From Oscillospiraceae bacterium (lineage in GTDB: Bacteria > Bacillota > Clostridia > Oscillospirales > Acutalibacteraceae), in assembly GCA_015065645.1 (NCBI GenBank), contig SVPW01000022.1:1-38306 (forward strand): a DNA stretch of 38,306 nucleotides, given 5' to 3'. Under the pieces are notes generated by a model. The model did no database searches. It saw only the letters and a program-made list of their open reading frames with translations, and was not told the DNA's origin. This document shows positions 34 through 38,142 of this stretch, piece after piece (the first letter of the stretch is position 1; the number at the start of each line of letters is the position of its first letter). The translations under genes and the position numbers were made by a program.

Positions 34-85
34 GCCTTCCCCTTTGACGGGGAAGGGGGACCAACGAAGTTGGTGGATGAGGTGA
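34..85 (+). repeat. Palindromic repeat, copy A (forward)
   Basis: Core of the dispersed repeat family. The first hairpin is CTTCCCC/GGGGAAG. The second is ACCAAC-GAA-GTTGGT at 60-74. It ends with the conserved tail GATGAGGTGA. It faces copy B (131-178) head to head across about 45 bases, so the pair forms one long imperfect palindrome like a miniature inverted-repeat element. Confidence 0.85.
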
Positions 86-130: not shown

Positions 131-178
131 CACCTCATCAGTCGCCTACGGCGCCAGCTTCCCCATCAAGGGGAAGCC
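131..178 (-). repeat. Palindromic repeat, copy B (reverse)
   Basis: Reverse-oriented copy of the family. Read on the minus strand it has CTTCCCC-TTGAT-GGGGAAG and then a second hairpin whose stem is CGCC/GGCG (143-153), followed by GATGAGGTG. The second-hairpin sequence differs completely from that of copy A, although both are paired. The spacer between A and B carries another small palindrome, ATGCCG/CGGCAT (about 113-129). Confidence 0.8.
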
Positions 179-6980: not shown

Positions 6981-7682
6981 GTGAAAAAAATACTCATTGT
7001 TGAGGATGAAGAGGCTATACGAGAGTTTGAAGCCATAAATCTTAAAAGGGTTGGTTATGAAACGGTTGAAGCAGGCTCCGGAGAAGAGGCTCTTATGCTT
7101 TACGATACCGACCCCGATGGTTTTGATATAGCGCTTCTTGATGTTATGATGCCCGGAATGGACGGCTTTGCCGTTTGTAAGGAGCTTCGTAAAAGAAGTG
7201 ATTCAATAGGTATTATTATGCTAACGGCAAAGTCGCAGGAAATGGATAAGATAAGCGGTCTTATGATTGGTGCGGATGACTATATAACCAAGCCTTTCAG
7301 TCCCACAGAGCTGCTTGCCCGTGTGGATTCGCTTTATCGCCGTGTTGCAATGAATACTGCAAAAGCCCCTGCGGTTTCGGATGAAATTACCATTGGTAAA
7401 TTTACGCTTAATTTACGCCGCCGCACCCTTTCTAAAGAGGGTAGAAATATTGAGCTTACGCAGGTTGAATTTCAGATAATGGAATATTTCTTCACCAATC
7501 CCGATACAGCTCTTGGCAGAACCGATATTTTGCATAAGGTTTGGGGCAGTAATTATTTCGGTGAAGAAAAGATTGTTGATGTTAATATCAGAAGACTGCG
7601 TATGAAGATTGAGGATAACCCATCTAATCCGCAATACCTTGTAACGGTTTGGGGAATGGGTTATAAATGGGCGTTGTTGTAA
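6981..7682 (+). CDS. OmpR/PhoB-family response regulator
   Basis: A 233-residue DNA-binding response regulator with a GTG start and GAGGGG upstream. The receiver domain has the acidic pair E8/D9, phospho-acceptor D54 in LLDVMMPG, T82 and K104 (TKPF). The C-terminal half is a winged helix, with the EGRNIELTQVEFQIM and VDVNIRRLRMKIE regions typical of OmpR-type output domains. Its partner is very likely the kinase at 8618. Normally the two genes would be adjacent, but here 919 bases of repeats and a DUF559 gene separate them. Confidence 0.95.
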   Translation: MKKILIVEDEEAIREFEAINLKRVGYETVEAGSGEEALMLYDTDPDGFDIALLDVMMPGMDGFAVCKELRKRSDSIGIIMLTAKSQEMDKISGLMIGADDYITKPFSPTELLARVDSLYRRVAMNTAKAPAVSDEITIGKFTLNLRRRTLSKEGRNIELTQVEFQIMEYFFTNPDTALGRTDILHKVWGSNYFGEEKIVDVNIRRLRMKIEDNPSNPQYLVTVWGMGYKWALL

Positions 7683-7702
7683 ATTGTATTGTCTTTAAAT
7701 AT

Positions 7703-7948
7703 AGACGGTAGGCTTGATGAGGATTGCGTCACCTCATCCGTCACTTCGTGACACCTTCCCCGTCAAGGGGAAGGCAGTTTTGGAAGACGGTAAGCTTGAT
7801 GAAGTTTGCGTCACCTCATCCGTCACTTTGTGACACCTTCCCCGTCAAGGGGAAGGCAGTTTTGGAAGACGGTAAGCTTGATGAAGTTTGCGTCACCTCA
7901 TCCGTCACTTTGTGACACCTTCCCCGTCAAGGGGAAGGCGGATAGGAA
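7703..7948 (-). repeat. Three tandem 82-bp palindromic repeat units (copies C1-C3)
   Basis: Units begin at 7703, 7785 and 7867, exactly 82 bases apart. Units 2 and 3 are identical over their first 73 or so bases; unit 1 differs at a few positions. Read on the minus strand, each has the constant hairpin CTTCCCC-TTGAC-GGGGAAG, a second hairpin GTCAC-NNN-GTGAC (loop TTC in unit 1, TTT in units 2 and 3, plus strand), GATGAGGTGA, and a tail ending CCGTCT. All three point away from the DUF559 gene, opposite to copies D and E on its other side. They are not a CRISPR array: there are no unique spacers. Confidence 0.92.
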
Positions 7949-7955
7949 ATTTATT

Positions 7956-8336
7956 ATGAAAAGTGTTTTGACAGCAAATGCAAAAGCTTTAAGAAAAAAT
8001 ATGACCAAGGAAGAGCGTCATATATGGTATGATTTTTTAAAAAAATTACCTTTCACGGTAAACCGCCAAAAGGTAATAGGAAAATATATTGTGGATTTTT
8101 ATTGTTCACAAACCAAAACGGTAATAGAATTGGACGGCTCCCAGCATTATGAAACCGAGGGTGCTGAAAGCGATATGCTTCGTGATGAATATTTAAACGG
8201 TTTGGGAATAAGGGTTTTAAGATATTCAAATTATGATGTTAATAAAAATTTCAGTGGGGTTTGTACTGATATTTTGGAAAAGTTTGGATTGGAGAATATA
8301 AGCCTTCCCCTTGACGGGGAAGGTGGCACGGCATAA
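7956..8336 (+). CDS. DUF559 / Vsr-like endonuclease-domain protein
   Basis: A 126-residue protein with the first plausible ATG at 7956, just after the last tandem repeat; a weak GGA-type ribosome site precedes it. It matches the DUF559 family: an N-terminal LRKNMTKEERHIWYDFL, then VDFYC and the IELDGSQHY block, with acidic and histidine residues in the PD-(D/E)XK-like layout shared with very-short-patch repair (Vsr) nucleases, ending with RVLRYSNYDV. No function is established for the family. Its final residues (SLPLDGEGGTA) and stop codon are encoded by repeat copy D. The gene is flanked by repeats in inverted orientation and splits a two-component operon, suggesting it moved in together with them. 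Confidence 0.85.
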   Translation: MKSVLTANAKALRKNMTKEERHIWYDFLKKLPFTVNRQKVIGKYIVDFYCSQTKTVIELDGSQHYETEGAESDMLRDEYLNGLGIRVLRYSNYDVNKNFSGVCTDILEKFGLENISLPLDGEGGTA

Positions 8337-8350
8337 GCCGTGACGGATGA
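8302..8350 (+). repeat. Palindromic repeat, copy D (forward)
   Basis: CTTCCCC-TTGAC-GGGGAAG, then the second hairpin CACGGC-ATAA-GCCGTG, then GACGGATGAG. It overlaps the 3' end of the DUF559 gene and supplies its stop codon. The unit tail continues to about 8380 with ATCCGTCTT, matching the tail of the tandem units. Confidence 0.88.
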
Positions 8351-8387
8351 GTTTGGCAAAATTATGAATTATCCGTCTTTATCGATT

Positions 8388-8440
8388 GCCTTCCCCTTGA
8401 CGGGGAAGGTGGCACGGCATAAGCCGTGACGGATGAGGTG
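8388..8440 (+). repeat. Palindromic repeat, copy E (forward)
   Basis: Starts 86 bases after copy D, in the same orientation and with the same second hairpin CACGGC-ATAA-GCCGTG, ending GATGAGGTG. D and E therefore form a two-unit tandem on the right side of the DUF559 gene. Confidence 0.88.
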
Positions 8441-8520
8441 AAGCAAATCTAATGAATATATATTCTTTTATCCCAACCCTCACTGCTTTTAAAACAATTC
8501 CCAAAGTGAATTAAAATAAA

Positions 8521-8585
8521 ACGGACAATTAATAATAAAATAATCCGTGCCGTAAGGCACACCGAAATTATTATTTATTATTTAT
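8521..8585. repeat. Second, A+T-rich palindromic repeat
   Basis: A long imperfect palindrome centred on GTGCC-GTAA-GGCAC (8547-8560). The arms AATAATAAAATAATCCG and CCGAAATTATTATTTATT pair beyond the core. It differs in sequence from the CTTCCCC family and lies just before the ribosome site of the kinase gene. It is probably another dispersed element; only one copy is seen in this window. Confidence 0.6.
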
Positions 8586-8617
8586 TCTTTATTCTTTATT
8601 GAAAGGAGGTCATATAG

Positions 8618-10180
8618 GTGAATTTTGAGCTTAAATTCAAGGGTATTACCATGAGATGGTTGCTTTATGTTTATCTTCCGATAGCGCTTGCGGTTGTTTT
8701 GCTTGCAACGGTATTTTCACTTATATATGCTTCCTTTTATGAGGATAGGGTAAAAAATATCGCTGAGGATTACACCTATGATTTCCACAATCTTTCGGAT
8801 TGCGACCGCAACACCTTTGAAACGCTTGCTGTCACATTAACCGAGGATTTTGCACATAAAACTCTGCTTGAGGTGCAGGTTTTAAATGCTGATGGCAGGG
8901 TGTTTATTTCTACCACCGGCTTTGAACCCGCAAAGGAGCTTATGCCCGATTACCAACAGGCAACAATAACCAAAAAAACAGGTTATTACAGGGGTGAAAA
9001 TTCTGTTGGCGAGGAAGTTTTGGCAGGCACTACCATGATTTACGGCAAAAACGGTGAGCATTTGGGAGCTTTCCGTTGGATTACCTCAATGCAGGCGGCT
9101 AATTCGCATATAAGAAATTTTGTTTTGCTGCTTTTGCTTTTGTGCTTTGGAATTTTGGGAATTTCGGCACTTTCAGGTTTATATTTTATAAAATCAATCG
9201 TTCGCCCGATACGGGATGTAAGTAATACGGCACGCCGTATTGCAATGGGTGAATTTGAATCAAAAATGGAAATTAAGAAGAACGATGAAATTGGTGAGCT
9301 GTGCGATACCATAAACTATATGGCTTCTGAGCTTCACCGTGCAGAAGGAATGAAGAACGACTTTATTTCTTCGGTTTCACATGAGCTTCGTACTCCGCTT
9401 ACAGCTATTCGTGGTTGGGGCGAAACGGCGAAGATGTCGGTAGGATTTGATGATGACCTTGTTTCACGAGGACTTGATGTTATCCTTTCCGAAGGGGAAC
9501 GGCTTTCGGGATTGGTGGAGGATTTGCTTGATTTTTCCCGTATGCAAAGCGGCAGACTTTCGGTTAATACAATACCCATTGATATTTCGGGAATGTTGAC
9601 CACGGCGGTTGATATGTATATTGAGCTTGCCAAAAAGCAGGGTATTGAGGTTTCGTTCACACCTCCCTCAACACCGTCTGTTGTTATGGGTGACCCCGAT
9701 AGATTAAAGCAGGTATTTGTAAATATTATTGATAATGCGGTTAAGTATACCGAAAAAGGCGGTTTAGTGCTTGTGGTTCAAACAAGAGAGGAAGCCTGCG
9801 TGCGTATACTTGTTAAGGATACGGGTGTTGGTATTCCTGCACAGGATCTTGACCATGTTAAAGAAAAATTCTTTAAATCAAACAAAACGGTGAGAGGTTC
9901 GGGTATAGGTCTTGCGGTTGCCGATGAAATAATCAAACAGCATCAGGGATTACTTTTTATCGAAAGTACCGAAGGTGCGGGTACAACCGTTACCATAGTT
10001 CTTCCGCTTTATGAGGAGGAAAAGGTTGAGGAAGCTGATGAGGATGTGCTTCCCCTTAACGAATTTGAAACACCCGTTGTAAAAACGGAGGCGGATGAGG
10101 AAAACGATTCTGCCGAAGAGCAAAATGAGGATTCACAAACAGATGACTCTCAGAAGGAGAATGAAGATGGCGAAGGCTAA
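8618..10180 (+). CDS. Sensor histidine kinase (HAMP, HisKA, HATPase)
   Basis: A 520-residue membrane kinase with a GTG start behind AAAGGAGGT. Transmembrane segments lie at about 13-40 and 167-191, enclosing an external sensor domain of roughly 125 residues. A HAMP linker follows (about 192-240), then HisKA with the phospho-acceptor H255 in SVSHELRTPL, then the ATPase boxes NIIDNAVKY (N), DTGVGIP (G1) and GSGIGLAVA (G2). The last 55 or so residues are an unusual acidic tail rich in Glu/Asp, not needed for kinase function. It very probably phosphorylates the regulator at 6981, from which it is separated by inserted repeats. Its end overlaps the next gene by 14 bases. Confidence 0.94.
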   Translation: MNFELKFKGITMRWLLYVYLPIALAVVLLATVFSLIYASFYEDRVKNIAEDYTYDFHNLSDCDRNTFETLAVTLTEDFAHKTLLEVQVLNADGRVFISTTGFEPAKELMPDYQQATITKKTGYYRGENSVGEEVLAGTTMIYGKNGEHLGAFRWITSMQAANSHIRNFVLLLLLLCFGILGISALSGLYFIKSIVRPIRDVSNTARRIAMGEFESKMEIKKNDEIGELCDTINYMASELHRAEGMKNDFISSVSHELRTPLTAIRGWGETAKMSVGFDDDLVSRGLDVILSEGERLSGLVEDLLDFSRMQSGRLSVNTIPIDISGMLTTAVDMYIELAKKQGIEVSFTPPSTPSVVMGDPDRLKQVFVNIIDNAVKYTEKGGLVLVVQTREEACVRILVKDTGVGIPAQDLDHVKEKFFKSNKTVRGSGIGLAVADEIIKQHQGLLFIESTEGAGTTVTIVLPLYEEEKVEEADEDVLPLNEFETPVVKTEADEENDSAEEQNEDSQTDDSQKENEDGEG

Positions 10181-37951: not shown

Positions 37952-38002
37952 GCCTTCCCCTTGATGGGGAAGGTGCCGAGTGTAACGAGGCGGATGAGGT
38001 GA
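37952..38002 (+). repeat. Palindromic repeat, copy F (forward)
   Basis: CTTCCCC-TTGAT-GGGGAAG followed by the variant second segment GCCGAGTGTAACGAGGC, which is only weakly palindromic, then GGATGAGGTGAGGCAAATC. The unit repeats after 86 bases as copy G, with the tail CCGTCTT shared with the tandem units at 7703-7948. Confidence 0.85.
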
Positions 38003-38037: not shown

Positions 38038-38142
38038 GCCTTCCCCGATTTATCCCCCTTGTGAAAGGGGGATGTCACGGATAATTCCGTGACAGGGGGA
38101 TTCAGGGAAGGTGCCGAGTGTAACGAGGCGGATGAGGTGAGG
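38038..38142 (+). repeat. Palindromic repeat, copy G, interrupted by another repeat
   Basis: The same unit as copy F (38038-38046 GCCTTCCCC; 38104 onward GGGAAGGTGCCGAGTG), but the loop of the first hairpin is replaced by about 57 bases of a different palindromic element. This is an insertion of one repeat family into another. Confidence 0.85.
38047..38103. repeat. Nested palindromic element inside copy G
   Basis: Two hairpins: TCCCCCTT-GTG-AAGGGGGA and TGTCACGGA-TAA-TTCCGTGACA, then AGGGGGATTCA. It is distinct from the host repeat. Only this copy is seen in the window. Confidence 0.75.

Follow-up and report, generated by a model that had tools for sequence, protein, structure and literature searches.

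A DUF559 nuclease gene and the inverted two-hairpin palindromes that enclose it probably form a minimal, REPtron-like mobile unit, in which the nuclease would recognize its own palindromes and the unit would move by break and repair; this reading was derived from comparisons of sequence and predicted fold. As such genes and such repeats are paired recurrently, at changing places and in distant bacteria, they may represent a very small kind of mobile DNA that has been overlooked. The starting point was a stretch of 38,306 nucleotides (the window), which represents contig C19 of a 1.86-Mb draft genome assembled into 51 contigs.

In the window, the unit interrupts a two-component pair composed of a response regulator (6981..7682, plus strand; Pfam Response_reg and Trans_reg_C) and a sensor histidine kinase (8618..10180, plus strand; HAMP, HisKA, and HATPase_c). 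With the GTG start of the kinase at 8618, the coding gap between both genes amounts to 935 nt, and the 919 bases (7683-8601) that a sequence-only reading had placed between the regulator stop at 7682 and the kinase ribosome-binding site at 8602 were confirmed. The same reading had described three repeat units on one strand, a DUF559 gene, and two units on the opposite strand, and covariance model R1 (built from 32 units, two of the window's five among them) scored all five at 51 to 60 bits. The left units are located on the minus strand at 7732..7774 (59.9 bits), 7814..7856 (58.5 bits), and 7896..7938 (58.5 bits); all three are carried by a tandem array of three 82-bp copies identified by repeat search (7703..7948), and the last one ends 17 nt before the DUF559 start codon. 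The DUF559 gene itself (7956..8336, plus strand) encodes 126 amino acids. The right units are found on the plus strand at 8303..8352 (51.3 bits) and 8389..8438 (58.2 bits), the former overlapping the 3' end of the gene, so that the palindrome contains the codons of the final residues and the stop codon. An exact palindrome, CCTTCCCC-n5-GGGGAAGG, is present at 7754, 7836, 7918, 8303, and 8389, and also at 37953. A search pattern with up to three mismatches gave 17 matches in the window (both strands of a palindrome counted) versus a mean of 0.06 in 100 shuffles.

Further units of the same palindrome family were found near one contig end at 35..82 (plus strand, 37.1 bits) and 133..177 (minus strand, 57.7 bits), which form an inverted pair of approximately 140 bp, and near the other end at 37953..37999 (plus strand, 51.0 bits) and 38039-38137. 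Several contig ends in relatives also bear such units, and the palindromic repeats probably break the assemblies at these positions. Ahead of the kinase, a different hairpin (8546-8592) is followed by an AT-rich CACCGAAATTATTATTTATT-type tract, and a similar form was observed in another genome (G059, L201). A second tandem array with four units and the same 82-bp period was present in a fetched stretch without a DUF559 gene (L255, G000:C16:30330-31000). The possibility that the palindromic units represent a known RNA was set aside, as a search of the whole window with Rfam at gathering thresholds gave two tRNAs and nothing else.

The assignment of the gene product to DUF559 was verified by its match to PF04480 (E 3.2e-30; 104.7 bits at a cut-off of 20.6 bits). 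A sub-threshold Pfam match was obtained for MTES_1575, and the matches were to nucleases only. An AlphaFold2 model (pLDDT 86) had its nearest solved fold in 3HRL, a DUF559-like protein of N. gonorrhoeae, followed by the homing endonuclease I-Bth0305I (3r3p_A, E 5.6e-5, TM 0.80 on target length). Weaker fold neighbors were Vsr (1cw0, E 0.037) and TnsA (E 0.11), and mitochondrial ribosomal proteins of Toxoplasma and Tetrahymena were also among the fold matches. The residues E20, D47, E58, D60, H64, and D73 were invariant in 58 sequences and form a putative active site. E, D, H, and D are present in the order of the EDxHD motif, and a profile alignment to 3r3p (E 0.012) matched only some of these residues. 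One DUF559 gene has been assigned to the EDxHD family of homing endonucleases (PMC9403480), in agreement with the fold result obtained here. An assignment as defense gene was rejected, since the PADLOC matches were weak (DpdF, E 2.5e-7 over 52 residues; mREase_II, E 0.002).

The repeat unit comprises 42 to 50 nt (typically around 45 nt) and consists of two hairpins and a purine-rich tail, GGATGAGG. The arms of the first hairpin are pyrimidine/purine (CCTTCCCC...GGGGAAGG), the second hairpin is variable in sequence, and the units of the window fold into stable hairpins. In an alignment of 32 units, 94.7% of the positions in the two helices were paired, and 51 cells were changed on both sides, versus a mean of 14 in shuffles and at most 12 in slid versions; the two-helix structure had been chosen from the same 32 sequences on which pairing was scored. 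Two main subtypes were distinguished by the tail, A with GATGAGG and B with GGAGGG, with CCTTCCCC or CCTCCC as arms. Because automatic folding of a 69-unit alignment recovered the first hairpin only, two subtype alignments were used. With regard to a possible heterodimer of left and right ends, a regular expression left 71 of 125 loci unclassified on both sides, and no claim is made. Nested repeats were observed in two genomes (G013 and G051; L230-L232 and L237-L239), where several copies of a longer repeat whose ends resemble AAATTATAGTTTATCG contained or adjoined a palindrome pair.

Within the genus, DUF559 genes were detected in 30 of 61 genomes; across the phylum, the figure was 52 of 199, many of these being weak matches or parts of very long open frames. 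A scan of species genomes revealed at least 566 DUF559 relatives; the best 80 (L100-L179) derived mainly from Clostridia, together with Acidaminococcus, Schwartzia, Anaerovibrio, and one Anaerolineaceae record. One stretch with two genes is represented by both L150 and L059 and was counted twice in the 125-instance flank, 102-instance unit, other-lineage, repeat-label tree, gene-pair flank, and hairpin-overlap counts, and two further loci (L047 and L048), 99.8% identical, originate from two genomes. The unit survey with models R1 and R2 covered 102 of the 125 instances (L156-L179 were left out) and omitted partial matches (most with E above approximately 0.001), some stretched matches, and R1/R2 duplicates.

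A unit was found within 300 nt of the gene in 96 of 100 distinct, mostly clostridial, instances (98 of 102 with the duplicate locus), a presence that is partly by construction since units of the surveyed DUF559 loci had served to build R1 and R2; orientation, density contrast, and a test with control ORFs depend less on this construction. Units were located on both sides of the gene in 61 instances, on one side in 35, and on neither in four. Among the two-sided cases, 58 of 61 were inverted, 50 with the tails inward and eight with the tails outward as in the window, and three were direct. The density of units was 3.47 per kb within 300 nt of the gene versus 0.131 per kb beyond 1 kb (duplicate locus counted). 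The flanks were also compared directly in the 125 instances that had 150 nt or more on either side, by the best match of the 300 nt upstream to the 300 nt downstream. An inverted match with a score of at least 20 was obtained in 75 of the 125 instances (73 of 123 distinct ones) versus 9 of 571 control ORFs from the same loci. Such scores were reached in 13.5% of cross-locus pairs, and in 49 of the 125 instances the own flank pair scored higher than each of 15 sampled cross-locus pairs. The coding sequence ran into a hairpin in 44 of 125 DUF559 genes, and in one subclade both units lie downstream of the gene. The sequence-only reading had expected DUF559 genes of relatives to lie close to inverted copies of the repeat, and this association was recovered; at the level of sequence, the linkage of DUF559 genes to the repeats is well supported. 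In three genomes (L061, L062, and L040), the DUF559 unit was observed directly upstream of a gene similar to low-molecular-weight protein-tyrosine phosphatases (name inferred).

The main repeat subtypes were shown by sequence to track the nuclease clade. On the DUF559 tree, subtypes A and B required four changes over 89 labeled loci, and 200 label shuffles never gave fewer than 21; such shuffles show clustering only, which is inflated by close relatives. The tree comprised 120 of 125 rows, five rows with more than one stop being omitted. A third label, C (nine rows), was unclustered, with nine changes versus a shuffled mean of 8.8; 22 rows had no repeat label, and when all rows were counted, A needed 11 and B 16 changes. 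In each of two genomes (G019 and G051), an A-type gene accompanied by A repeats coexists with B-type genes accompanied by B repeats. The window's genome harbors another DUF559 gene on contig C36 (L018), which has other palindromes next to it, including a B-like unit (29.3 bits). These observations argue against a mere genome-wide background.

Closely related DUF559 genes mostly occupy different places. Of 78 gene pairs with at least 85% amino acid sequence identity, 61 had no flank in common, 11 had one, and six had both, two of the latter six representing the L150/L059 duplicate. The genes of L044 and L047 were 97.9% identical at the nucleotide level, and the only common sequence was a 760-bp block plus a separate 35-bp match; for L040 and L058, 409 bp were in common, extending from the start of the left palindrome into the right palindrome. 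In one subclade, the common block of 760 bp exceeds the span from palindrome to palindrome.

At the junction of regulator and kinase, the gap was 28 to 130 nt in 29 of 29 other loci versus 935 nt in the window; these loci were the best 30, the own one included, of 59 genomes with a kinase match. The empty site suggested by the sequence-only reading was thus found in all relatives examined, and the existence of junctions without the unit disagrees with an insertion shared by all relatives and followed by ordinary vertical divergence. A further empty site was identified in G027, in which two nearly abutting genes occupy the site that holds a DUF559 unit in G037 (flanks 89% and 84% identical). 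The two also differ outside the palindromes, over approximately 43 nt on the left and 30 nt on the right, with no exact end of the unit discernible, and the occupied and empty states may reflect either gain or loss of the unit. At the whiA-dnaE junction (gene names inferred), surveyed in 30 of 61 genomes, five of them without whiA upstream, DUF559 was present in three of 25 measurable loci, 20 had a gap of 13 to 79 nt, and two contained a longer stretch. At two such loci (L281 and L282), the upstream frame (whiA, name inferred) enters the left palindrome, which supplies its C-terminus and stop codon. The earlier proposal that nuclease and repeats constitute one mobile unit has therefore gained ground, as the combination recurs in inverted arrangement and relatives have empty junctions; mobility of the unit is well supported by these comparisons.

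The pairing is also found outside the Clostridia. A protein search for DUF559 yielded 41 plasmid and seven phage records, from which 20 loci were chosen before their flanks were viewed. A significant inverted flank match (p ≤ 0.01) was obtained for 14 of the 20 versus 3 of 120 overlapping control windows; the 20 loci include four from Deinococcus and two from E. coli and are thus not independent. The positive loci belong to alphaproteobacteria, Deinococcus, cyanobacteria, Neisseria, E. coli, and two uncultured phage records. The other six, two of which had significant direct matches, gave no significant inverted match and comprise Shinella, Azospirillum brasilense, Photobacterium, Picosynechococcus, one E. 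coli, and one Sinorhizobium locus. Examples of positive loci are Sphingomonas, with DUF559 between sufB and sufC, and three species of Deinococcus, in each of which the gene occupies another junction within the 4-hydroxyphenylacetate (hpa) gene cluster (L181, L183, and L191). At E. coli ycjD, a perfect 17-nt inverted repeat overlaps the start region (L270, 1649-1693), and GC-rich repeats are present downstream (L270, 2031-2234). In 3361 of 5426 genomes, at least 80% of a 1301-bp query of ycjD with its flanks was recovered. The use of ycjD for a clean test of empty sites was discarded, since two strains without the ycjD region carry an efflux gene after sapF and such sites are thus not simply empty. 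In a wider and more tentative reading, which we consider slightly less probable than its contrary, DUF559 nucleases would be the motors of pan-bacterial one-gene mobile elements with palindrome ends, and much untagged palindromic repeat DNA in Clostridia, alphaproteobacteria, Deinococcus, and cyanobacteria, possibly also beside E. coli ycjD, would be their non-autonomous progeny generated by break-and-repair copying.

A mobile unit is the simplest account of the inverted enclosure, the clade-specific repeats, the changing places, and the gene-less pairs. In its simplest form, it would span approximately 450 to 550 bp, with the nuclease as the sole encoded protein. The Vsr/EDxHD-like nuclease would recognize the two-hairpin end as duplex, as cruciform, or as single strand at replication, and would nick or cut at or near the palindromes. 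Host repair or replication would then copy or join at the break either the whole unit or its two ends without the gene, and the dispersed repeats would be non-autonomous offspring of the unit. In the window, the unit may have entered the regulator-kinase gap, and its left end may later have been amplified to the 82-bp tandem array. In this scheme, recognition and cleavage by the nuclease as well as the way in which the unit moves are putative.

The alternative that retains most weight, though it appears unlikely, is transposition proper, in which the palindromes would be terminal inverted repeats cut by a DUF559 transposase, perhaps with a host partner and with little or no target duplication. 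A discrete unit with inverted ends at different sites is what this alternative expects, and it gains from the long inverted ends, with arms of 56 nt (95%) at the locus of Deinococcus proteolyticus and of 114 nt (96% complementary) at that of Sinorhizobium, and from the weak fold neighbor TnsA, which cuts for Tn7. Inspection by eye of the G037/G027 empty site and of the fetched inverted pairs revealed neither an evident target-site duplication nor a constant outer end of the unit, both of which speak against it; furthermore, PD-(D/E)XK-like nucleases are not known to join ends alone. With modest confidence, we favor homing-like break and repair over classical transposition, on the grounds that a target-site duplication was not evident and that a homing endonuclease has the nearest characterized fold.

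Inverted unit pairs without the gene (approximately 120 bp, MITE-like) are dispersed in several genomes of the genus, some as identical copies. Units were detected in 30 of 30 DUF559-positive genomes versus 19 of 31 without detected DUF559, and at least ten units were present in 13 of 30 positive versus 2 of 31 negative genomes. A repeats-only excess in DUF559 genomes was discarded as an argument, since the raw significance became weak after subtraction of two flanking units per gene (p 0.098). In one genome (G057) with at least 101 B-type (R2) matches, many of them equal in score, the single detected DUF559 gene was flanked by another repeat type and not by the abundant family. Such repeats in genomes without detected DUF559 would be expected if the palindromes spread by other means and marked insertion-tolerant intergenic sites, at which DUF559 genes accumulated by homologous recombination between repeats; the clustering of units in arrays and the occurrence of direct flank matches (score of at least 20 in 33 of 125 instances) point in the same direction. 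We regard this explanation as somewhat less likely still than transposition, because control ORFs of the same loci would then not so rarely have inverted flank matches, the main subtypes follow the nuclease clade even within one genome, nearly all distinct two-sided cases are inverted, and coding sequences frequently enter the hairpin. That the protein is a domesticated Vsr-like nuclease for mismatch repair or damage processing of the host, with the hairpins as terminators or mRNA stabilizers, fits their stable folding and a finding in Caulobacter, where a methyltransferase mutant needs the DUF559 protein VsrA (CCNA_02930) for its SOS response (PMC12907096), but is improbable in view of the patchy presence within the genus, the changing location, and hairpins that are inverted on both sides and also dispersed without the gene, a misfit for a fixed gene with terminators.

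If the preferred reading of a mobile nuclease-palindrome unit is true, palindromes in several phyla would be accompanied by a second enzyme family, unrelated to the first, which would give DUF559 a function; RAYT-like partnerships would have arisen more than once, and the origin of the repeats would become testable. Short palindromic repeats are common in bacterial genomes, and the pairing might explain some scattered hairpin repeats. It also bears on the practice of treating DUF559 proteins simply as mismatch-repair enzymes. In the literature on DUF559 and palindromic repeats consulted, mainly open-access, in part as excerpts, and including PMC8836110, we found no published link between the two.

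Among known systems, the homing endonuclease I-Bth0305I of the EDxHD type has the nearest characterized fold, and its dimer binds a target of nearly 60 bp (PMC3943268), comparable to the length of the unit described here. It differs as an intron-type homing enzyme with an extended DNA-binding region (PMC3943268; PDB name 'Mobile intron protein'), whereas the window protein is little more than a nuclease domain, and no intron was found at the DUF559 locus. Vsr and Vsr-like proteins are related in that E. coli YcjD and Caulobacter VsrA are DUF559 proteins and Vsr is a weak fold neighbor; in contrast, Vsr is a repair enzyme encoded together with dcm in E. coli (PMC1189080, PMC12907096), and the neighbors here are a regulator and a kinase. 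Palindromic repeats were grouped in 2013 into a GTAG class with a recognized enzyme partner, a CGTC class apparently without dedicated transposase, and further untagged classes (PMC3733652). The CGTC-tagged REPs resemble the repeats studied here in forming inverted pairs of short palindromes across phyla; for these REPs, no dedicated transposase is apparent. Their stems almost always start with AT-type pairs and bear a CGTC tag (PMC3733652), unlike the units described here, which combine pyrimidine/purine arms (CCTTCCCC or CCTCCC) with another hairpin and with GATGAGG or GGAGGG as tail. An identity with CGTC-REPs was rejected: the units have CCGTC at the base of their second hairpin, but do not fit the definition in PMC3733652, according to which stems start with AT pairs.

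The closest parallel in architecture is the REPtron with its RAYT enzyme. Both have one small nuclease-type gene, in few copies per genome, between inverted palindromes, and both have dispersed non-autonomous inverted palindrome pairs, a repeat type tied to the enzyme type, and intergenic insertion. RAYT is an HUH tyrosine transposase, unlike the Vsr/EDxHD-like nuclease of Pfam family DUF559 described here. RAYT repeats are GTAG-tagged REPs (PMC3733652), whereas the units here consist of two hairpins and a purine tail; GTAG was absent from the hairpin foot in the consensus of aligned units, and the tail was GGATGAGG or GGAGGG. The analogy to RAYT transposases and REP sequences drawn in the sequence-only reading thus holds for the architecture and fails for the enzyme, because the fold is Vsr/homing-endonuclease-like and not HUH. 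The DUF559 unit is REPtron-like in architecture but lacks two defining features, the HUH transposase and the GTAG tag, in place of which it has a Vsr/EDxHD-like nuclease and two-hairpin palindromes with a purine-rich tail.
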